Virus record (IMG/VR): IMGVR_UViG_3300037109_000027
Location: 1 to 29,361 of that record
Length of the DNA: 29,361 nucleotides
Strand: one strand, 5' to 3'
DNA from: a virus
Below, piece after piece: positions 7,750 to 17,219 of the stretch. The notes beneath the pieces were generated by a model. That model did not search any database, was not told where the DNA came from, and worked only from the letters and a program-made list of their open reading frames with translations. Both the position numbers and the translations under genes were made by a program. Within the stretch, counting starts at the first letter, position 1. Each line of letters opens with the position of its first letter.

Positions 7750-8765
7750 TAATCGTTTCTTAGACGTGCTATATAAACCCAACCTTCTCCTTCAAACTTC
7801 AATTTATTCTCTGTCAACTCACAAGCATTTGTTTCAGATAAAATACTCCTTAACAAATATGGAGTGATATTGAATGTGATTGAAGTACCTTCATATTTCA
7901 TAGGAACTTCTTCTTCAAACCATCCTGAGTCTGCTTCAGAGGATATTATAAGTTTACCTTTCTCTAATGTTATTGTAATAGACTCATCTAACACATGATC
8001 CCTTTTAGCAAACACACCTGCTCTGTCTAAAACAGAATCAATTATCTTAGGTAAAATAAGTCTTACACCTTTTACATTCAACATCTTTGCTGTCTTAGGA
8101 AACTCATCCTCAAGTACTCTACAAGAAATGATTGTACCTTGAACTGTTTTAAAATGAACCCATCCTTTCCCTTCTGCAATCTTTGTAGGTTTAAGTCTGA
8201 GCATATCTATTACCGATCCTGCAGGAATTAAGAAAGTCTCTATTGGCATTTCCTCTCCTAACTCGCATCTCGTTATTCTTTGATTGTCTGATGCCTCAAG
8301 GAATCCTTGTTGATTGACATGTACACTTTTTAATATAGGATCATTATTTGATGTTGTACAGGATGACACAGCAAATGCCATAAACTTGAGGAATGTAGAA
8401 GGTAATAAAAACCATTTACCATGTTGTGTTACTTCCTCTTCGTCTAATGGAAGTTTAATTTCTTGATGTAATGTCAGTCCAGCATGAGATCTACCTGATG
8501 TGATAAGTATTTCTTTCTTATCAATTGTTAGCTCAACTTCTTCCTTTTTAATCTTAGCAAGGAAGGCATACAGTCTGTCAGCCTTAACAGCTCCTTCTAA
8601 TTCCAATCCTTTTATAGGATGTGAGATACTAATCTCATCATTGTAGGTTACAACTCTGCCTGACATAAATGCAAAGGATGTTGATTGTTCTATCAACTCC
8701 TTATTTGCTAAACCAGGCTTTACAATCTCCAATGCATTTTGTAATTCAATCTTGTTTACTTTCAT
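7749..8765 (-). CDS. DNA sliding clamp, DnaN-like
   Basis: A 338-residue beta-rich protein matching divergent phage beta clamps. The recognisable parts are VRLILPKIIDSVLDRAG, an EKGKLIISSEADSGWFEEEVP segment similar to the third domain of DnaN, and ITFNITPYLLRSIL followed by a C-terminal strand (VYIARLRND). It should encircle DNA and tether the polymerase encoded immediately downstream, loaded by the AAA+ protein at 3623-4537. The gene lies between an unknown gene and the polymerase halves, with a TAATG overlap to the latter. Sequence divergence leaves some uncertainty. Confidence 0.75.
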   Translation of the reverse strand: MKVNKIELQNALEIVKPGLANKELIEQSTSFAFMSGRVVTYNDEISISHPIKGLELEGAVKADRLYAFLAKIKKEEVELTIDKKEILITSGRSHAGLTLHQEIKLPLDEEEVTQHGKWFLLPSTFLKFMAFAVSSCTTSNNDPILKSVHVNQQGFLEASDNQRITRCELGEEMPIETFLIPAGSVIDMLRLKPTKIAEGKGWVHFKTVQGTIISCRVLEDEFPKTAKMLNVKGVRLILPKIIDSVLDRAGVFAKRDHVLDESITITLEKGKLIISSEADSGWFEEEVPMKYEGTSITFNITPYLLRSILSETNACELTENKLKFEGEGWVYIARLRND

Positions 8766-8767
8766 AT

Positions 8768-9481
8768 TTAATGTTTTAAATCAATTTGTTCTCTAGGTGT
8801 TATATTGTATAGATTATTTTTATTCCAATAATACATCAACGTCAGCATTCTTTCATGAAACTCTTTCCTTACACTCTGAAATTGAGCAACTTGTTTTCCT
8901 GGTCTACAAGCTATCCTATCCAAATGATCTTTCCTGTTTCTATAAGTTAAACGATAAGACTGCCAATCCATATCCGTAAACTTACCTGCCCAGAACATAC
9001 CAGTCTTAGTTACAATAAGAAAATGGAGATCCATTGTGAAGAACATACCATGAAGAACTCTTACTCTTATATTCTCATGTACCGCTTGCATGTGTTCATA
9101 AAGTTCCTCATTTAGATTCCATCTAGGTCTGTTTCCTAGGAACTCTGTCTTAGTTTTCTCAATAACAAATGGTTTAAAGACAATTCGATATTTTGGATTA
9201 TCCTTAGGCCATACCTCAAGAAACAAACCAGCTCCTTTTAATATTAACCTTGGCTTTATCTTAGGATAAGATTCACACTCTTTTATCTTAAGTCCTTTTC
9301 TAAATTCCTGCCCTTGGATAATCCTAGCTCTATATCCTGCTTCTCTTAATAGAGGAATAATCACTTCTTCTATATCTGCCCCTACCTTGTCTACTGCAGC
9401 ATACATGCCTTTTTTAGTTCTCTTCAATTCAGTATCCGAGAAGAGTCCTCTTTGCATAACCGCCTTTTTTGTTCGTTCCAT
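8768..9481 (-). CDS. Unknown protein between the dpdA-like gene and the clamp
   Basis: A 237-residue protein that I do not recognise. The N-terminus is basic (MERTKKAVMQRG), then VDKVGADIEEVIIPLLREAGYRA and a mixed region with LFLEVWPKDNPKYR, followed by helices and a Trp-rich C-terminal part. The alternation of strands with Glu/Lys (LEVWPK) and later helical segments could fit a nuclease fold such as PD-(D/E)XK, but I see no complete motif. It begins just after the dpdA-like stop and ends just before the clamp start. It may belong to either the modification or the replication group. Confidence 0.65.
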   Translation of the reverse strand: MERTKKAVMQRGLFSDTELKRTKKGMYAAVDKVGADIEEVIIPLLREAGYRARIIQGQEFRKGLKIKECESYPKIKPRLILKGAGLFLEVWPKDNPKYRIVFKPFVIEKTKTEFLGNRPRWNLNEELYEHMQAVHENIRVRVLHGMFFTMDLHFLIVTKTGMFWAGKFTDMDWQSYRLTYRNRKDHLDRIACRPGKQVAQFQSVRKEFHERMLTLMYYWNKNNLYNITPREQIDLKH

Positions 9482-9482
9482 A

Positions 9483-10481
9483 TTACTTTTTTAGATTGAT
9501 AACATGCTCAAGATTTCCTTTATAAAAGAAGGATTGGAGTCTTCCTTTTAACTTTGTAATCTCAGGATCCGTTACACCTTTCCAAAACACTTCTTCTTCC
9601 TTCTTAGACAAGGATCCTGCAAAATAGAATGTTAAGTATTCCTCAGCGTCTTTTTTAGCTTTCCTAGTTTTAAAGTTCCAAGGAAAAGCTGGTACATTCC
9701 TTTGTATCTGTTCTGAGAATGTGATATAATTCCATATAACTCTTTGAATGATACTATCGCTTAATATATCTATGGTTAATCCTAACCTGTTTGCTCTCCG
9801 TTCCAATTCCTTTATTACTCCCGATGTTAATCGATCTTTAAGAGCAATGTCTCGAGATGAGACTTGAATTGTCTTAAGTTTCTCAGAGCTATATTCAGGT
9901 AATGTAATCCAACCATACATAGCAAGTTTCCTACATGTTGCACTATCTACCGAGTACCAAGGGTAACGAGTCATTAAAGGAATCGCCGTACAGGCAAAGC
10001 CGTGTACCCTTACTTTAGGAAATCCGTCCTTGTCAAGTATATGCTCCTTCCATATCTTATCTAACCAGGGAATAAGAACGCTTGTCGGGTTAGGTACAAG
10101 TCCTCCTAGTGCAATGTAGTCGTAAGAGTCAATCATAGCATCTAGCCACTTTGTATCACTGCCTAAATGGAAGACTGGTATAGGTGTTAATCCAGCTTTC
10201 TCAAGGATTAATTGATTTTTCCAAGTTAACTCAGGATTATTAATAACATCCAAATTAGAATAGAAATCTATCGTCCCTTCATTAGCCTTTATAAACTTAA
10301 TAAAGTCTTTTCTATATTGTAAGTATTCAGGAGTCTCAGTATAGGAAAAATCATCATATTTCCTTTCTGAGAACTTTGTTCCCATGATTCCTTTATGTGC
10401 TGTTTTCCTAGACAGTTTATTGTATAGAGAAGGGGCTCCACAGTCTGCAAAGATTTTGTAATCAAACGGATTCTTTTTCAT
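9483..10481 (-). CDS. dpdA: DpdA-like guanine transglycosylase (7-deazaguanine insertion in DNA)
   Basis: A 332-residue TGT-superfamily protein. FADCGAPSLYNKL (Asp13 at the N-terminus) corresponds to the first catalytic Asp of transglycosylases. YIALGGLVPNP (122-132) fits the GG motif, VHGFACTAIP (159-168) the HGFG-like motif, and YSVDSATC (176-183) the second catalytic Asp. The C-terminal zinc module of bacterial tRNA TGT is absent, as in phage DpdA. DpdA enzymes swap guanine in DNA for a 7-deazaguanine base, protecting phage DNA from restriction. FolE, QueD and QueE genes upstream make the base precursor. Its start overlaps the glycosyltransferase end by 20 nt. The DpdA subfamily is not determined. 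Confidence 0.87.
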   Translation of the reverse strand: MKKNPFDYKIFADCGAPSLYNKLSRKTAHKGIMGTKFSERKYDDFSYTETPEYLQYRKDFIKFIKANEGTIDFYSNLDVINNPELTWKNQLILEKAGLTPIPVFHLGSDTKWLDAMIDSYDYIALGGLVPNPTSVLIPWLDKIWKEHILDKDGFPKVRVHGFACTAIPLMTRYPWYSVDSATCRKLAMYGWITLPEYSSEKLKTIQVSSRDIALKDRLTSGVIKELERRANRLGLTIDILSDSIIQRVIWNYITFSEQIQRNVPAFPWNFKTRKAKKDAEEYLTFYFAGSLSKKEEEVFWKGVTDPEITKLKGRLQSFFYKGNLEHVINLKK

Positions 10482-11511
10482 TTACTAATTGTTTAATTTG
10501 ATAGATCATTTTTGGTATTGCCCTTCTTCCCTTCTCTAAGATGTCTAATTGCAACATATTGAGTTCTTGGTAATCCTTGTCATGTCCCATCATAAAATGA
10601 ATAATCATCTTTTTAGCCTGAGCTAAATTACTGTCATTATATGTGTATGTAGGAGGGTACATTTCAGAATAACTTAATCTGTTAGGCACAACAGGAAAAC
10701 ATCCATATAAAACAGCTTCCTGCATTGCAATACCCCAAGTCTCTTGTTTAGAGCAAGAAACAGCAACTTTTGCTCTACCTAATAAGTCATAATACTCTGC
10801 CTTTGTTTTACATTCTTCCTTTGTCTTTAACCATTTCCATCCCATCATTTCCGATTCCTCTCTGCACATCTCATGCAAGGCATCAAATTGATCAGGACAT
10901 TTCTCTGAATCAAGTCTGTGAGGAAATACAATTATGTTTTCTTTCTTTGTTGATATTGAAGATACAAAATCAGGGTATATTGGAAACCCTGTTACAATAA
11001 CCTTGGTTGGATGGACTGCAACGGTTTTACAAAGTAAAAGTTTATGAAAATCTGTTGCCACATAGATTTGATTAACAATAGAACCAAACCAAGCATCTTC
11101 TATAGGCTCTGCCCAATCATGCATTCCTTGTTTAGCTAAGAAGTCGTTTGGGTCATAACTTCCTGCATGCAAACATCCTACAATCTTAAGATTGGTTAAC
11201 CCTAACCCGTCTCTTATATAAGCTATAGTTGTTAAACCAGGATCCCAAAGATCGTAATAAAACAATACAAGAGGTTCTTTATTGTCGTATTTAGACAATA
11301 TTTTAATAAGTTCTTCCAACTGTGATACTTTATATTGATGTGTTTCCACAACATCTAAAAAAGATCCTTTATTAATCTTTCCTGAGGTAGGAATTCCATA
11401 AACATGTGAGGCATTTAAACCGCCTTCATGAAATGCTTTAGTTATCCATCTGTCCCATTGAATGGAATATCGTTCCTCTAAAGGTTCGATCGGAATTAAA
11501 ATTACTTTCAT
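10462..11511 (-). CDS. GT-B fold glycosyltransferase in the 7-deazaguanine cluster
   Basis: A 349-residue protein with a C-terminal GT4-type domain. FPHRLDSEK (196-204) fits the start of the second Rossmann domain, and ETWGIAMQEAVLYG (257-270) the E-x7-E nucleotide-sugar motif, followed by CFPVVPNRLSYSEMYP. The N-terminal half is Rossmann-like (MKVILIPIEP at the start; LVLFYYDLWDPGL). It should transfer a sugar from an NDP-sugar, acceptor unknown. Its end overlaps dpdA by 20 nt, so the two are likely coupled. DNA base glycosylation is an attractive but unproven role; host surface or protein glycosylation is also possible. No signal peptide or membrane segment is seen. Confidence 0.8.
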   Translation of the reverse strand: MKVILIPIEPLEERYSIQWDRWITKAFHEGGLNASHVYGIPTSGKINKGSFLDVVETHQYKVSQLEELIKILSKYDNKEPLVLFYYDLWDPGLTTIAYIRDGLGLTNLKIVGCLHAGSYDPNDFLAKQGMHDWAEPIEDAWFGSIVNQIYVATDFHKLLLCKTVAVHPTKVIVTGFPIYPDFVSSISTKKENIIVFPHRLDSEKCPDQFDALHEMCREESEMMGWKWLKTKEECKTKAEYYDLLGRAKVAVSCSKQETWGIAMQEAVLYGCFPVVPNRLSYSEMYPPTYTYNDSNLAQAKKMIIHFMMGHDKDYQELNMLQLDILEKGRRAIPKMIYQIKQLVNEKESV

Positions 11512-11533
11512 GTGATTAATGAATTAGTGAATA

Positions 11534-12898
11534 TTATCTTATTACATCAAATCTTGCGAGTATAGCAAAGCCTATAACAGTTTGCATTTGTTTGAACATA
11601 GGTATATAATCAAAAGAACGTACTAAGTCCTCAAGTCTTATGCCTGTCTTAATGCATGCAGGACGAAAGTCCTCTACATTTATGTTATATAGCTCTAAGT
11701 AAGGAACCGCAGACTCAAAGTTCTCAGGATGAACTTCAGTAATTACATCTAGCAGTAAGGAATTTGGGATATAACTAGGCAATAACCTCACTGGACGTTC
11801 TGTTATGAAATGTCCTTTATTATACAACGTCTTATAAATTGCTGTACCGTGATATGGTTGAAAGAATTGTCCTAGCCCTCCTTTGGTTCCGTTTGTACGT
11901 AATCTGCCTACAACATCCTTCATATCAAATCCATACTGTTGCATAAACTTTCCTGTATCATTTAAAGACTTAATATTCTCTCCTGGGAAGAATGTTTGTA
12001 CTAACCAGAATATATCGAAAGGATATAGATGTTGATTAATTGCTAGATGTTGACAATCTAATAAGGATTTACCTACTCCCATGCTTTGTGAGACATCTTC
12101 AGATCCAGATTCAAAACCAATCTCAATTACTTCTAATCCTGCCTTCTTAATAACTTCTGTTCCGTATTTATCTATAAAATCCCAAACAGCTTTTGCAGAT
12201 CCTAGAGCAATTAAATGAAATCCTAAGTCTTCTATATCATTAAGAATCCAATAAGCTCGATCAATATCAAAAAAGAAATCCTCATCAGTAAAGTGAATAT
12301 TTTTTATATTATTTACAAGACAATATCTGAGCATTAATTTAACATCACTTTGTGGAAGTTCAATTCTTGTCTTTTCACAGTTTCTTGTTGAAGGACAAAA
12401 TGCACATCCGTTAGGACATCCATAAGAAGTAAATAAAGGATAAACCTTTTCACCTTTGTTGAGATGTTTAAGGTGCATATCACAATCGCTGAGTAATAAA
12501 CGATAAAGGTTTTTATAGTTCTTTGGATAAGCTCTCATCGCCATACTAAGAAAGTCTTTATCTATTAAAGGATTAAATCCTAATACCTCTTCACAGTTTC
12601 TCAAACCTAATTCTTTTATCAATGGACTATATCCTATAAAGTAGACATTATCTTTACCAAATTGGAAGGGTAACATCTGTGCTAATAACATTGCACATTC
12701 TATCTGAGGATAGGACCAAAGTGTAACAATGTGAGCATCCGCATCAGGAATCTTATCTATATCCTCAGGCTGAAATGCTTCCATAAAGAATACATCTTCT
12801 TTTATCTCTTTTAATCCGTTATAAAGAAGATAAGGAGCATAACAGAAACTTCCTCTGTTGAACTCTGTACTTGTTGAATCTATTATATTAATTTTCAT
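11534..12898 (-). CDS. Radical-SAM enzyme with N-terminal Rossmann-like domain
   Basis: A 454-residue protein. CPNGCAFC (Cys161, Cys165, Cys168) is a CX3CX2C radical-SAM Fe-S motif preceded by FTSYG. EIGFESGSEDVSQSMGVGK fits the strand and helix that follow in Elp3/MiaB-type barrels. The first 125 residues look like a Rossmann or B12-binding-like domain, but I see no DxHxxG cobalamin motif. Radical-SAM enzymes of this layout modify nucleosides, lipids or small molecules. I chose ATG 12898; an ATG at 12940 would overlap the QueD-like gene by 53 nt. The gene sits between a QueD-like gene and the glycosyltransferase, so modification of the 7-deazaguanine or its sugar is a reasonable inference. 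Confidence 0.8.
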   Translation of the reverse strand: MKINIIDSTSTEFNRGSFCYAPYLLYNGLKEIKEDVFFMEAFQPEDIDKIPDADAHIVTLWSYPQIECAMLLAQMLPFQFGKDNVYFIGYSPLIKELGLRNCEEVLGFNPLIDKDFLSMAMRAYPKNYKNLYRLLLSDCDMHLKHLNKGEKVYPLFTSYGCPNGCAFCPSTRNCEKTRIELPQSDVKLMLRYCLVNNIKNIHFTDEDFFFDIDRAYWILNDIEDLGFHLIALGSAKAVWDFIDKYGTEVIKKAGLEVIEIGFESGSEDVSQSMGVGKSLLDCQHLAINQHLYPFDIFWLVQTFFPGENIKSLNDTGKFMQQYGFDMKDVVGRLRTNGTKGGLGQFFQPYHGTAIYKTLYNKGHFITERPVRLLPSYIPNSLLLDVITEVHPENFESAVPYLELYNINVEDFRPACIKTGIRLEDLVRSFDYIPMFKQMQTVIGFAILARFDVIR

Positions 12899-13217
12899 AA
12901 ACTTCGGCTCCGTTTTCGTTATCCTCAAAGACAGATACATAAATTGCAGAAAAGGCTTTTAATAAATATTCTGCAAGTCCTTCACAAGACATTTGATCCA
13001 TTGCTCCGTCTGGGAATTTGGATAGTAATAAATCATTCAATTGATGTTTTAATTTAATAAACTCCACATCCCTGTCATTATGTTTAACAGGTATTTTTAA
13101 TTCTATATGAAATAAATGCCTATGTGGGTATTTTAGATAATTAACTTCAGGAACATCACAATTCCTCCAAGAATGAATTCCTTCGAAGATTGTTCTAACT
13201 ATAACATTTGTTCTCAT
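12888..13217 (-). CDS. QueD/PTPS-family paralog lacking the catalytic cysteine
   Basis: A 109-residue T-fold protein of the 6-pyruvoyl/6-carboxy-tetrahydropterin synthase type. Zinc ligands His15 (EGIHSW), His32 and His34 (PHRHLFH) are kept, and SCEGLAEYLL (77-86) matches the PTAENLA helix of QueD. The catalytic Cys, four residues before the HxH pair in QueD, is Leu28 here, and the DH pair is also missing. It therefore probably does not make 6-carboxytetrahydropterin; the other gene (16839-17219) does. A derivative role such as CDG decarboxylation (the predicted DpdL step) is possible, but I cannot confirm that DpdL has this fold. Start overlaps the folE stop (ATGA). Confidence 0.75.
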   Translation of the reverse strand: MRTNVIVRTIFEGIHSWRNCDVPEVNYLKYPHRHLFHIELKIPVKHNDRDVEFIKLKHQLNDLLLSKFPDGAMDQMSCEGLAEYLLKAFSAIYVSVFEDNENGAEVYEN

Positions 13218-13771
13218 TTTAACATAGATAATAATTCCATTTTAATTGACGGATCTTCTAAAAATACTCCTTTTAATGAGAATGTTTTCATTATGGAGTT
13301 TTGTTTATTACATCCACGAGCACACATGCAAAAATGACGTGCTTCTATAAAACAAGCAGCACCTTTTGGTTTTAGATGTGTCATTAAAGCCTCAGTAACC
13401 TGTTCACTTATTCGTTCCTGGATTTGTAATCTACGAGCGTATATATCTACAAGACGTGCTAATTTAGAAATACCTATCACATGTTTGTCTGGAAGATATG
13501 CGACATGTGCCTTACCATAGAAAGTTATCATATGGTGTTCACAAGAACTGTACATTTCGACATCTTGTAAAAGAACAATCTGGTTATAGGTTCCCTTCTC
13601 AAAGACGGTTAGAATATCTTTGGGATCTTGCCCATAACCAGAATATAGTTCTTTCCAAGATTTAAGAACCCGAGCGGGGGTGTCTTTTAGTCCTTCCCGC
13701 TCAGGATCCTCACCAATCCACTCTAATTGTTTTTTAATTAGAGCTTCGGTAATTGAATTAATTTCAAACAT
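13214..13771 (-). CDS. folE: GTP cyclohydrolase I, FolE
   Basis: A 185-residue FolE with the full motif set: SSCEHHM (Cys77, His79, His80), HVIGISKLARLVDIYARRLQ, QERISEQV and HFCMCARG (Cys148). Cys77, His80 and Cys148 fit the zinc site. It converts GTP to 7,8-dihydroneopterin triphosphate, the first step of the 7-deazaguanine pathway. Length and motifs are normal, so activity is likely. It lies between an acidic protein gene and a QueD paralog, and its stop overlaps the latter's start. Together with QueD and QueE it would make CDG independently of the host. Confidence 0.93.
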   Translation of the reverse strand: MFEINSITEALIKKQLEWIGEDPEREGLKDTPARVLKSWKELYSGYGQDPKDILTVFEKGTYNQIVLLQDVEMYSSCEHHMITFYGKAHVAYLPDKHVIGISKLARLVDIYARRLQIQERISEQVTEALMTHLKPKGAACFIEARHFCMCARGCNKQNSIMKTFSLKGVFLEDPSIKMELLSMLK

Positions 13772-13777
13772 CCCCGG

Positions 13778-14782
13778 TTACTTCTTTACCTTTTTGACAG
13801 GTGCTTTGTCTTTGGCAATCTTCATGTAAGTATCAATTCTCTTCTGAATGAAGGCCATGTCAGTGATGTCTTTTTTCTCTTTGTATGCCTTAACAAATTC
13901 CTTTTTGATGGTAGCTTTGTCTGCTCCTTCTTTGAGAAGTTTGTCAGCAATGTCCTGCATAGAAGGACCGTTCTTTACAAAAGGATTCGGTTTCTTTTTC
14001 CCGTCAGTAGCTTTTGCTTTCTTTGCCGGTTTCTCATCTTCTTCCTCTTCTTCCTCTTCTTCGTCTTCAACAGGAGCCTTGTGTCCTTTTACATCATTGA
14101 CTTTCTTGTCTGCGATGTTCTTTTTGTGACCTTTTTCGGCAACTTCCTGCTGTTCTTCTTCTTCGTCTTCAATCAGGCCGGACATTTCTTCATAAAGTTC
14201 AGAGGCTTTCTTGAAAGAGTGCAGACGTTTTTTGATCGATTTGAATTCGACATTGTCCTCAGCAATACTCTTCAATACTTTGAGATCTTTCTTGTTTTCG
14301 TCGAGCTGATCTCTTAATGAAGTCTCTTCTTCCTCTTCCTCTTCTTCTTCATCTTCTTCCTCATCATCGGTATCGTCGTCATCATCTTCTTCCTCTTCCT
14401 CTTCTTCCTCAACTTCGACTTTTTTACCTTTCTTTCCCTTTTTTACCGGGACTTCTTCTTCCTCTTCTTCTCCCTCTTCGGCATCATTACCGTCTTCGTC
14501 CTCATCCTCTTCTTCGACATCCTCAACATCATCATCTTCCTCTTCTTCTTCTACAGGAGCTTTCTTTCCTTTCTTACCGGCAGGAGGATTCAATGCTGTG
14601 ATTACTTCAGTGGTAACTTCTGTAAACTCATCTTCCTTAGGGTTAATAAGTTTAATAGCTTCCATGACCTTTTCAGTCAATTCCTTGTCACCTAATTTGA
14701 CATTAATCGGAGGTTTAATTCCGAGAACTTCATTGAGTTCCTTTGCGGCTGTCCGCAACTTTTTTGCATCAATTTTGCTCAT
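13778..14782 (-). CDS. Highly acidic low-complexity protein in the modification island
   Basis: A 334-residue protein. The N-terminal 70 residues (with LRTAAKELNEVLGIKPPI) and a C-terminal segment (MQDIADKLLKEGADKATIKK) look like two ordered helical domains. Between them lie long Glu/Asp runs broken by Lys/Gly patches such as KKGKKGKK. The region reads as more G/C-rich than its neighbours. The acidic stretches could mimic DNA or bind basic proteins; this is inference. A run of 91 non-coding bases lies upstream, so it may start its own transcript. I recognise no family. Confidence 0.7.
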   Translation of the reverse strand: MSKIDAKKLRTAAKELNEVLGIKPPINVKLGDKELTEKVMEAIKLINPKEDEFTEVTTEVITALNPPAGKKGKKAPVEEEEEDDDVEDVEEEDEDEDGNDAEEGEEEEEEVPVKKGKKGKKVEVEEEEEEEEDDDDDTDDEEEDEEEEEEEEETSLRDQLDENKKDLKVLKSIAEDNVEFKSIKKRLHSFKKASELYEEMSGLIEDEEEEQQEVAEKGHKKNIADKKVNDVKGHKAPVEDEEEEEEEEDEKPAKKAKATDGKKKPNPFVKNGPSMQDIADKLLKEGADKATIKKEFVKAYKEKKDITDMAFIQKRIDTYMKIAKDKAPVKKVKK

Positions 14783-14873: not shown

Positions 14874-16655
14874 TTAGCAACCTACCGTCTTGTCCCAGAG
14901 GATTATATGGAGTCTGTCTGAGTAACGCACACCATGTTGAATAGCCATGTTAACAACCATCTCTCGTTTCTTGAGTAAGTCCATTCTTGTACATCCTTCT
15001 GGCATTAGAATAACTTGTTCCTTCTTGATTAGCCCTGGTTCTAAGAAATCCATTTGTATCTCTTCCCAATCCTCTTCACAGTCTACAACAAATTTAAACC
15101 ATGAATTACAGAAACTGGACAATGTCATTAACACATCAGGTTTGTATCTATCCTTTTTAGGAACTCCGCTGCTTGATAATTTAGGAGAGTTATTCCAGCA
15201 ATCAACATTATGTGCAAAATAAGTCTTAGGCATTATTACACACTCATTCTCAATCTCTATAAAAGGAGAGAAATTAAATCTATCAATAAAATACCTTACA
15301 AAGTTATACAATCGTTGTTGCTGTAATAAAGGACTTCCTCCAGTTAATACAAGGTGCATTTCTTTGTCCTCTAACTTCTTAATCAAAGATCCTGTGTTCA
15401 TTAATGTGAGAATTTGTTCAAAGTTAAATGGACTTCCAACTCTCCACACCTCAGTTGTATCGCAATTATGAACTAATATACGATTTGCAAGATATGTAGG
15501 ATATGGAGTGCAAGAAAGATTGTAAACCTCTGTCTTAGTAACATCAGAGGAACCAAATAATCTTGCATAGGATTTTGAAGGAATATTTGTTGTTATATCC
15601 GTAATAATGGAGCCATTAAATACAAAATCAAATAATTTTTCTTGCAATCTGTCCTCTTCTTTTAGATCTTTTTCTGTTAAGAACAAAACATCATATCCAA
15701 ATTGTTTGTAATGTTGTAGCCTATTCCACTCATAGTCTCCTCTTTTTCTATATCCTGTTTTAGCATACCAAGGAAATGTTGTATTATATATTTCAATTAT
15801 CTTTTTCTTCCCATCTATAATAAAATCCGGAAATCTGTATCCTGTTTTTCTATTACCAATTGCTAATTTATTATCCCCTATATATGTAATAGGTAGTTCC
15901 TTTCTTTGAAATATCTTTTCATATCTTTTTTCTAAAGAACTCTTAGACTTCCAATGTCCTAACATACTTCTTTTAGCAACTTCAGGATCCTTCATTGGAT
16001 TTTTGTCTCCTTTCATTCCTAATGATAATCCAAGTCGTAATTCCTCAGATCTTGTATATGGAGTAATCTCTCCAGATTTTATTCTAGCTTTATATGTATT
16101 ACTCATTTTCTTTCGTGTTCTTTTATGCTTCATAGGATTAAATTTTGTCATCTTATATGAAACAACCTGAGACCCTAATAAAGATATTAAAATATCACCT
16201 TTTTGTAGTTCTCCTGCTTTAATCCATCCTTTTTCTTTTACATAGATTTTATGATTTTTTGTAAGGACTAGTGGATGATCTGTTTTATAATCTATTACAA
16301 TTTTTAGCATTTGTTCTTTAATATCCACAATTCTTTTCATTGTTTCTTTAACAGTGGTTTGAACAATGTTTTTATGTTTATCCAAGGTAAGAAGAACTTC
16401 CCCTTTTTGAATGTCCTTAATTTTCTTAAGACCTCCTTCTAAGGTTTGAATTAAGGTATTTTCATGAAAGCAATAAACACAATCTAAGGTACATTGTTGT
16501 AAACGAAGGAAACAAGCGGGAAATCCTGCATATATTCCTTCTCCTTGAATTGTATCATAAAAGAACTCGGAGATATTTAGATAATTCTCTCCATCCTTTT
16601 GAAAGATACTTCTTGTAGCATGTACATCCGCAGAAATGATTTGTTTTATTATCAT
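14874..16655 (-). CDS. queE: 7-carboxy-7-deazaguanine synthase QueE, interrupted by an intein
   Basis: A 593-codon ORF. Residues 1-61 and 398-593 form a QueE of 257 residues when joined; residues 62-397 are an intein. The joined protein reads QQCTLDCVY-CDTTEVW, restoring the CX3CX2C radical-SAM motif, with FYDTIQGEG upstream and LVLTGGSPLL downstream, as in QueE. QueE converts 6-carboxytetrahydropterin to CDG using SAM and an Fe-S cluster. The intein sits exactly at the third cluster cysteine, so activity depends on splicing. The start overlaps the stop of the membrane-protein gene (ATGA, 16655-16652). Confidence 0.93.
   Translation of the reverse strand: MIIKQIISADVHATRSIFQKDGENYLNISEFFYDTIQGEGIYAGFPACFLRLQQCTLDCVYCFHENTLIQTLEGGLKKIKDIQKGEVLLTLDKHKNIVQTTVKETMKRIVDIKEQMLKIVIDYKTDHPLVLTKNHKIYVKEKGWIKAGELQKGDILISLLGSQVVSYKMTKFNPMKHKRTRKKMSNTYKARIKSGEITPYTRSEELRLGLSLGMKGDKNPMKDPEVAKRSMLGHWKSKSSLEKRYEKIFQRKELPITYIGDNKLAIGNRKTGYRFPDFIIDGKKKIIEIYNTTFPWYAKTGYRKRGDYEWNRLQHYKQFGYDVLFLTEKDLKEEDRLQEKLFDFVFNGSIITDITTNIPSKSYARLFGSSDVTKTEVYNLSCTPYPTYLANRILVHNCDTTEVWRVGSPFNFEQILTLMNTGSLIKKLEDKEMHLVLTGGSPLLQQQRLYNFVRYFIDRFNFSPFIEIENECVIMPKTYFAHNVDCWNNSPKLSSSGVPKKDRYKPDVLMTLSSFCNSWFKFVVDCEEDWEEIQMDFLEPGLIKKEQVILMPEGCTRMDLLKKREMVVNMAIQHGVRYSDRLHIILWDKTVGC
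15465..16472 (-). mobile_element. Intein in QueE with a Vsr-like homing endonuclease domain
   Basis: 336 residues from Cys62 (CFHENTL) to Asn397 (ILVHN), followed by the extein Cys398. The first block has Cys1 and a Hint-fold beginning; a block B-like region is TDHPLVLTKNH (residues 125-135), and the C-terminal blocks are VYNLSCTPYP and NRILVHN. All residues needed for standard Cys/His-Asn/Cys splicing are present. The central part has a NUMOD3-like stretch (GDKNPMKDPEVAKRSM) and then a nuclease-like segment with YRFPDFIIDGKKKIIEIYN and FGYDVLFLTEKDL, similar to Vsr-type or PD-(D/E)XK homing nucleases. No LAGLIDADG or HNH motif is seen. Confidence 0.85.
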
Positions 16656-16855
16656 AATGAAACTATTTTGTTTATAATGTAATTAACATACAAGCCTAAA
16701 ACAACGGCTGACACAATAAAAGATCCTATGATTGCCAGCCCACAATATGTTTTAAATAGTGTTACTATTGTAAGTAACATAAGGCCGACATCTGTAAGAC
16801 AAATAAGTATCATCAAAGATACTATTATCCCTATTATTTTAAATAATCGTTTCAT
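16652..16855 (-). CDS. Small membrane protein between queD and queE
   Basis: A 67-residue protein with two predicted transmembrane segments: residues 4-30 (IIGIIVSLMILICLTDVGLM) and about 40-60 (GLAIIGSFIVSAVVLGLYV). I chose ATG 16855, which overlaps the queD end by 17 nt; an ATG at 16897 would lie further inside queD. Its stop overlaps the queE start. No family recognised. A membrane protein within the queD-queE pair is unexpected and could be incidental; transport of a precursor is one speculative idea. Confidence 0.6.
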   Translation of the reverse strand: MKRLFKIIGIIVSLMILICLTDVGLMLLTIVTLFKTYCGLAIIGSFIVSAVVLGLYVNYIINKIVSL

Positions 16856-17219
16856 CGTGATTCGGTACATAACGGGCATTCGTTTTAGGTGTTTCACTTA
16901 CTTCTACAGCAGTCATTTGAGGGAATCTCAATTGAAACAGGTTAAAGATATATTTTGCAAGATTCTCTGCTGTTGGATTTAGATTAGGAGGTAACACTTC
17001 ATTAAGACAACGATGATCAAAGTTCTCATCTATTATCTTTTTAACTTCATTCAGTTCATTATAATCCTTCACAAAGCCTACTTTATCAAGTTTTAACGAA
17101 CTTAATTCGATCTTAACGGTATAGGTGTGTCCGTGTAATCTAGAACATTTATGCTCTGCTGGTAATCCTTCTAACCTATGAGCAGCATCGAATGTAAATA
17201 GTTTTGAAATTGTGTACAT
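16839..17219 (-). CDS. queD: 6-carboxytetrahydropterin synthase QueD
   Basis: A 126-residue QueD. FTFDAAHRL (His14) and CSRLHGHTY (Cys25, His29, His31) give the catalytic Cys and zinc ligands; FDHRCLN (Asp68, His69) and NPTAENLAKY (Glu86) complete the site, with VEVSETPKTNARY as the C-terminal substrate motif. It makes 6-carboxy-5,6,7,8-tetrahydropterin from FolE's product. Residues and length are canonical, so it should be active. It precedes the membrane gene and queE, with a 17-nt overlap into the membrane gene. Contrast with the cysteine-less paralog at 12888-13217. Confidence 0.93.
   Translation of the reverse strand: MYTISKLFTFDAAHRLEGLPAEHKCSRLHGHTYTVKIELSSLKLDKVGFVKDYNELNEVKKIIDENFDHRCLNEVLPPNLNPTAENLAKYIFNLFQLRFPQMTAVEVSETPKTNARYVPNHDETII

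Follow-up and report, generated by a model that had tools for sequence, protein, structure and literature searches.

Which base would a virus put into its DNA when it carries the early genes of 7-deazaguanine synthesis, has no QueC to continue that synthesis in the usual way, and keeps a sugar-transferring enzyme among these genes? The question is raised by the IMG/VR virus record IMGVR_UViG_3300037109_000027, whose 29,361 bases were analysed as a whole and are called the window here. On its minus strand lie genes for the recognised families QueD, QueE, FolE and DpdA, the last a predicted DNA guanine transglycosylase, and in the same run are a GT-B glycosyltransferase (GT), a radical S-adenosylmethionine (radical-SAM) enzyme and a protein called orf109; no QueC (PF06508) was found in the whole record. 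A first-pass annotation had rightly placed the GT and the radical-SAM enzyme in a 7-deazaguanine gene group and had proposed that they hypermodify the inserted base, but it overlooked the two best pointers to the chemistry, namely orf109 and the fact that QueC has been replaced. We consider it probable, with appreciable doubt, that the module forms a branch of the 7-deazaguanine DNA pathway of phages that does without QueC and makes a glycosylated base.

Association of the glycosyltransferase with base-exchange enzymes

From viral contigs, relatives of the GT and the radical-SAM protein were collected, and profiles made from the families of the window served to score every open reading frame (ORF). 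The GT relatives gave 91 clusters at 90% identity, among which 62 loci are context-complete, with at least 4 kb on each side. DpdA or a second protein of the tRNA guanine transglycosylase (TGT) family stands beside the GT in 59 of these 62 loci; orf109 is present in 58 and QueE in 51. The functional coupling of GT and dpdA that had been suggested for the window is real, and the GT, being nearly always accompanied by a TGT-family gene, is not frequent with its radical-SAM partner away from dpdA and queE. The three loci lacking a nearby transglycosylase are those of Sinorhizobium phage Phosso, of an outlier GT in the PhiXhv-12 group and of a lone Paenibacillus gene; Phosso makes the 60th case, with a TGT-family protein elsewhere in its genome (E 3e-64). 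The PhiXhv-12 group was not counted as the same system, its GT being an outlier and its locus having no orf109, QueE or DpdA. In Xanthomonas phage PhiXhv-12 (L221) this GT adjoins an aminotransferase and a gene resembling GlcNAc-malate deacetylase, and a distant TGT-like protein is encoded elsewhere (217298-217849, E 1e-11).

The second transglycosylase group consists of phrog_10773 and its relatives in ACP17, X1, BUCT-ZZ01, PAC2 and Magnetospirillum, which share a DSGG(F/L)Q motif and align to one another across phages and bacteria; one of them weakly matches the Pfam TGT family. Since the GT is found both with DpdA and with phrog_10773-like proteins, it travels with two different base-exchange enzymes. 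No nucleotide-sugar gene recurs regularly around the GT loci, and the common neighbours resemble sliding clamp, DNA polymerase, helicase and ParB-like genes.

The window DpdA matches phrog_887 over residues 56-253, and tblastn with it gave matches in 210 phage records, including 9g-type DpdA, with identities to DpdA of cultured phages of up to about 36-39%. Asp13 (in DxGA) and Asp179 (in SVDS), whose catalytic roles are assigned from knowledge of TGT enzymes, are invariant among 29 relatives. With 11.4 bits the protein falls below the 200-bit cut-off of the NCBIfam DpdA equivalog NF041059, and profiles of the GT and of DpdA found no match among PDB sequences. Insertion of a base into DNA by this protein is predicted by homology.

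Replacement of QueC by orf109

When DpdA was used as the seed, 65 loci had sufficient upstream sequence, and in these GT and orf109 occur together 25 times and are both missing 40 times, with no case of one alone; a Fisher test on these counts serves as description only. QueC was searched over whole records, which may be fragments, and is present in all 32 dpdA records without the GT and absent from 46 of the 48 GT-positive viral records, the window included, all 46 of which carry orf109. Neither of the two GT records with QueC carries orf109 at any place. In these viral records orf109 and QueC are mutually exclusive. QueC acts on 7-carboxy-7-deazaguanine (CDG), and since orf109 excludes QueC, orf109 most likely acts on CDG as well; that it would use CDG in place of QueC is well supported by this pattern of genes. 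In phage X1 the search for QueC gave one partial match below the cut-off. Vibrio phage D479, which has orf109 and no GT, gave one partial match above it, probably to another PP-loop ATPase.

The replacement has also run backwards. One record (L167) branches within the portion of the DpdA tree that carries the GT, and its locus is flanked, as in its GT-positive neighbours, by clamp-, glycosylase- and polymerase-like genes, but its order is queC-queD-queE-folE-dpdA, and GT, orf109 and additional radical-SAM genes of these families are all missing; it is one real reverse swap, QueC standing in place of the module. The FolE ORF of this record (8224-10005, 594 aa) has an apparent N-terminal fusion to a phosphoribosyltransferase-like part and an intein-like stretch after EAQHFC.

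As a protein, orf109 belongs with the T-fold enzymes. Its profile aligns with that of QueD over the length of orf109 at an hhalign probability of 96.7% (E 4e-10), against 3% for FolE as a control, and T-fold structures (PH0634, QueD) are matched weakly. Invariant in 43 relatives are H15, H32, H34, R49, E52, S77-C78-E79 and E98, and the three histidines would fit a zinc site. The Cys that precedes the HxH pair in QueD (the HGH zinc motif) is catalytic there; no conserved Cys stands at this place in the 43 relatives, and orf109 as a second QueD is rejected on account of this loss. Phages that lack the GT, among them Cellulophaga phage phiST, also have the protein, together with folE/queE. In phiST (L056, 7983-9568) and Chryseobacterium MA9V-3 (L057, 8001-9609) two unnamed proteins come after it, one of about 156-159 aa and one of about 259-264 aa, which perhaps form another branch from CDG.

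Relationship of the glycosyltransferase to queuosine-modifying enzymes

The AlphaFold2 (AF2) model of the GT (pLDDT 93.7) has a GT-B fold, and its top matches in the PDB are GT4 folds. Many of these match equally well (BshA, MshA, sucrose-phosphate synthase), and therefore the structure alone gives no acceptor identity. E257-X7-E265 and the donor-phosphate residues R199 and K204 are invariant in 31 relatives, while the match to PF00534, at 21.4 bits, lies below the cut-off of 26.4.

A more specific relationship appears in profile comparison. The queuosine mannosyltransferase (QTMAN) family, taken as the PF12038 carriers from 299 genomes, was compared with a generic pool, the loci of 30 GT4 genes. 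The GT profile matches 20 of 20 QTMAN-family proteins (E 4e-20 to 6e-11), and the best score in the generic pool is 10.8 bits. In the reverse test nearly all phage-type GTs score 35-67 bits; two outliers lie near 22, and no score in the generic pool exceeds 25. The link to queuosine glycosylation that had been drawn for this locus holds at the level of sequence, the donor domain of the GT being nearer to the QTMAN family than to generic GT4 enzymes. The GT may work like QTMAN; mannose as the transferred sugar is a guess.

An optional radical-SAM enzyme

The radical-SAM enzyme of the window, called type A, has its cluster-binding cysteines C161xxxC165xxC168 invariant among relatives, and its AF2 model (pLDDT 90.6) shows an N-terminal Rossmann-like domain followed by a radical-SAM barrel, as in AprD4. 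The best solved relative by sequence is AprD4 (E 1e-11), which is also the best structural match (Z 23.0, root-mean-square deviation 3.4 over 368 residues; next entry 18.7). The score for the AprD4 family model NF033070 is 24.5 bits, below its cut-off of 500. AprD4 acts on a sugar: its substrate is the aminoglycoside paromamine, of which it dehydrates a diol (PMC5461906). A sugar substrate would fit a radical-SAM enzyme placed beside a GT.

The coupling of this enzyme to the GT stands in part: type A occurs with the GT in 34 of 35 loci seeded with the radical-SAM protein, the 35th being marginal, but it is optional and replaceable. Among the 62 context-complete GT loci, 22 carry type A by hidden Markov model (L074 marginally) and 14 carry in the same block an unrelated radical-SAM gene of SPASM/MoaA-like type. 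The use of one or the other of two unrelated enzymes at this place points to a shared need for radical chemistry. The evidence for a remodelling of the sugar by the radical-SAM enzyme is suggestive only.

A candidate pathway and its alternatives

FolE, QueD and QueE, all established families, would yield CDG, a step for which the case is strong. Processing of CDG by orf109 would then replace its conversion to preQ0 by QueC, most simply through removal or activation of the carboxylate on the zinc site. With a host nucleotide-sugar as donor, the GT would glycosylate the 7-deazaguanine so formed, as free base or in DNA, a step that its coupling and its likeness to QTMAN support; in this phage the AprD4-like enzyme might afterwards change the sugar or its linkage, for example by diol dehydration. 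By homology DpdA would put the base into DNA in place of guanine, either ahead of the glycosylation or following it, and DNA so modified could, by analogy, resist host nucleases. A more detailed version, which we put forward tentatively and regard as rather less likely than not to be right in all its parts, is that the DNA bears a C-linked or ester-linked sugar at C7 of 7-deazaguanine, formed from CDG without preQ0, with orf109 removing or activating the carboxylate, the GT joining the sugar and one of the two unrelated radical-SAM enzymes reshaping it.

Several observations weigh against a glycosylated base as the product, or loosen the links in its making. The case is built from the coupling of the genes, the replacement of QueC, fold assignments and the conservation of active-site residues, and from these the substrates, the linkage, the order of steps, DNA as the target and a protective role are inferred. 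The match between GT and QTMAN is confined to the donor domain (residues 136-312, hhalign 99.3%), and the acceptor domain QTMAN_N (PF12038) is absent from the window GT and from the whole genomes of two phage relatives, which rules out that the GT is QTMAN proper. The two QueC-positive records, L132 (749-4651) and L102 (with a weak GT match), have GT, type A radical-SAM enzyme and DpdA together with QueC in a second, hybrid arrangement, so the need of the GT for orf109 is not strict. In Paenibacillus polymyxa (L067) the GT occurs outside such a setting. Many GT loci, 26 of the 62, have neither type of second radical-SAM gene; GT and radical-SAM enzyme as an obligate pair are rejected for this reason, and the radical-SAM step is an add-on. 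What is more, the DpdA tree of 92 rows needs only 2 changes of the GT label, so that the records are for the most part not independent and the evidence is weaker than the Fisher values suggest.

The evidence must also be held against other products. Work by Cui et al. in 2023 is said to have found dDG and dCDG in phages and to have predicted a decarboxylase, DpdL, acting on CDG, as orf109 should; orf109 may be this DpdL. The DNA might then contain plain 7-deazaguanine (dDG) or dCDG, with the GT and the radical-SAM enzyme modifying something else encoded in that operon, such as a protein or the cell surface. We think this unlikely, though the likeliest of the alternatives: orf109 in GT-less phages such as phiST speaks for it, but in dpdA contigs every GT is accompanied by orf109 or else by QueC, and a glycosyltransferase for surface or protein would not be expected to follow a base pathway or to resemble a queuosine mannosyltransferase. 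A pterin is a still less probable substrate. FolE and QueD or other T-fold enzymes also serve pterins, and a GT4 enzyme with them could attach a sugar to a pterin, in the way in which cyanobacterial BGluT glycosylates tetrahydrobiopterin; BGluT structures are indeed among the GT4 folds matched by the GT model, but mid-ranked among many similar ones. Moreover, the GT profile prefers the queuosine-glycosylating family, QueE is within reach in the majority of GT loci and a transglycosylase in nearly all, and QueC is replaced exactly where the module occurs.

The least probable of these alternatives, if only slightly so, is that the target is tRNA, and that the phage puts a glycosylated 7-deazaguanine into its own tRNA or that of the host. 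TGT enzymes work on tRNA, QTMAN acts on tRNA queuosine, a 7-deazaguanine nucleoside, so that the nearest characterised relatives of the GT are tRNA enzymes, and alphaproteobacterial relatives adjoin a Vut_1-type transporter. The window transglycosylase, however, groups with phage DpdA (phrog_887, with matches to the 9g type), and 9g DpdA puts 7-deazaguanines into DNA and failed to replace the tRNA TGT (PMC6884629). Membership of the same group weighs against a tRNA target.

Relation to known systems and significance

The phage systems with QueC and DpdA (9g, CAjan, Rosebush; PMC6884629) share FolE, QueD, QueE and DpdA with the window and exchange a free base into DNA, whereas in the window neither QueC nor an amidotransferase was found, and orf109, GT and radical-SAM enzyme stand instead; the word "glycosyl" does not occur in the text of that paper. 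With QTMAN (GTDC1) the GT shares the GT4 donor-domain motifs PHR...K.P and GxAMxEAxxxGCxPxxPxRLxYxE, but it adjoins dpdA, and its cluster has no cyclopentenediol pathway of queuosine. The radical-SAM enzyme has the fold and the cluster-binding Cys motif of AprD4, the 1,2-diol dehydratase of apramycin biosynthesis, but is only 14% identical to it, and no AprD3-like reductase was recognised nearby. In phage T4 the modified base enters through replacement in the nucleotide pool, whereas the route in the window would be base exchange. Glycosylation of a phage DNA base as protection is the idea common to both, the T4 alpha- and beta-glucosyltransferases acting on a different base, hydroxymethylcytosine (PMC13216743).

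Glycosylated 7-deazaguanines are known in tRNA. The first-pass annotation knew of no DNA example with this gene set, and we likewise found no report of glycosylated 7-deazaguanine in DNA or of the gene set in the open literature, outside which most subscription journals lie, so that absence is not proof. Nor did the open literature yield a study of DNA chemistry in the PA5oct group, and a review of jumbo phages mentions deazaguanine bases as predicted only. If the pathway is true, a sugar-bearing G joins the phage DNA modifications as a form of DNA disguise, the use of CDG by QueC-less phages is explained, the unnamed T-fold family phrog_17812 and the transglycosylase-like family phrog_10773 gain a function, and two radical-SAM enzymes are added whose substrates may be nucleosides or DNA. 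The proposal can be tested directly, since the core module is present in cultured phages, namely the PA5oct group, ACP17, X1, Synechococcus phage BUCT-ZZ01 and Phosso.

Organization of the module and minor observations

The features are listed in Table 1. Beyond dpdA follow a 237-aa protein and then, named by eye from the sequence, an apparent sliding clamp, a uracil-DNA-glycosylase-like protein and a DNA polymerase. The arrangement is not due to chance, for the same block is repeated in dozens of viral contigs with protein identities down to about 35-40%. The gene spacing given earlier is exact: GT and dpdA overlap by 20 nt (10462-10481), and 22 nt separate the end of the radical-SAM gene (11534) from the start of the GT gene (11511). 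The start of the former at 12898 was also correctly chosen, since homologues begin there; the mechanical ORF reaches 12940.

Table 1. Genes and other features of the module in the window
Feature	Coordinates	Strand	Evidence
DpdA, DNA guanine transglycosylase (predicted inserter of modified base)	9483..10481	-	phrog_887 E 2e-40
GT-B, GT4-type glycosyltransferase (GT), QTMAN-like donor domain	10462..11511	-	PF00534 21.4 bits; AF2 model
Radical-SAM enzyme, AprD4-like fold (type A), accessory	11534..12898	-	PF04055 E 1e-8; AF2 model
orf109 (phrog_17812), QueD-like T-fold protein	12888..13217	-	hhalign to QueD 96.7%, E 4e-10
FolE, GTP cyclohydrolase I	13214..13771	-	NF006825 E 3e-71, above cut-off
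Very acidic low-complexity protein between folE and queE	13778-14782	-	conserved C-terminal part in relatives
QueE, CDG synthase, intein-interrupted	14874..16655	-	phrog_2076 E 8e-44
Intein coding part inside QueE	15465-16472	-	TIGR01443 intein C-terminal region above cut-off; boundaries from extein reading
QueD, 6-carboxytetrahydropterin synthase	16839..17219	-	TIGR03367 96.2 bits, above cut-off

Related genes also occur in bacteria. In Magnetospirillum (L070-L073, contigs up to 1.4 Mb) one gene run holds the GT, orf109, a TGT-like protein with DSGGFQ, a 114-116 aa protein and QueD, and a contig of a Verrucomicrobia metagenome-assembled genome (L068) holds GT, orf109 and a TGT-like protein up to the contig end. 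Four alphaproteobacterial loci (L066, L069, L074, L075; Methylobacterium, Aurantimonas, Azospirillum, Pseudooctadecabacter) combine the GT with a TGT-like protein, and orf109 is present in two. Three of these genomes also have the Vut_1-type transporter, whose family includes queuosine-precursor importers. In bacteria, such alphaproteobacterial loci could correspond to the phage module.

Within the window, QueE is split by a 336-aa intein at the third Cys of its radical-SAM CxxxCxxC motif (extein CTLDCVY|CDTTEVW), and since the insertion sits at a cluster Cys, QueE should be inactive before splicing. The intein stretch DFIIDGKKKIIEI resembles a PD-(D/E)XK nuclease motif, and no insert is found at this site in those QueE proteins of the relatives that were read. 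The acidic protein between folE and queE has a conserved C-terminal part and keeps the same position in relatives.

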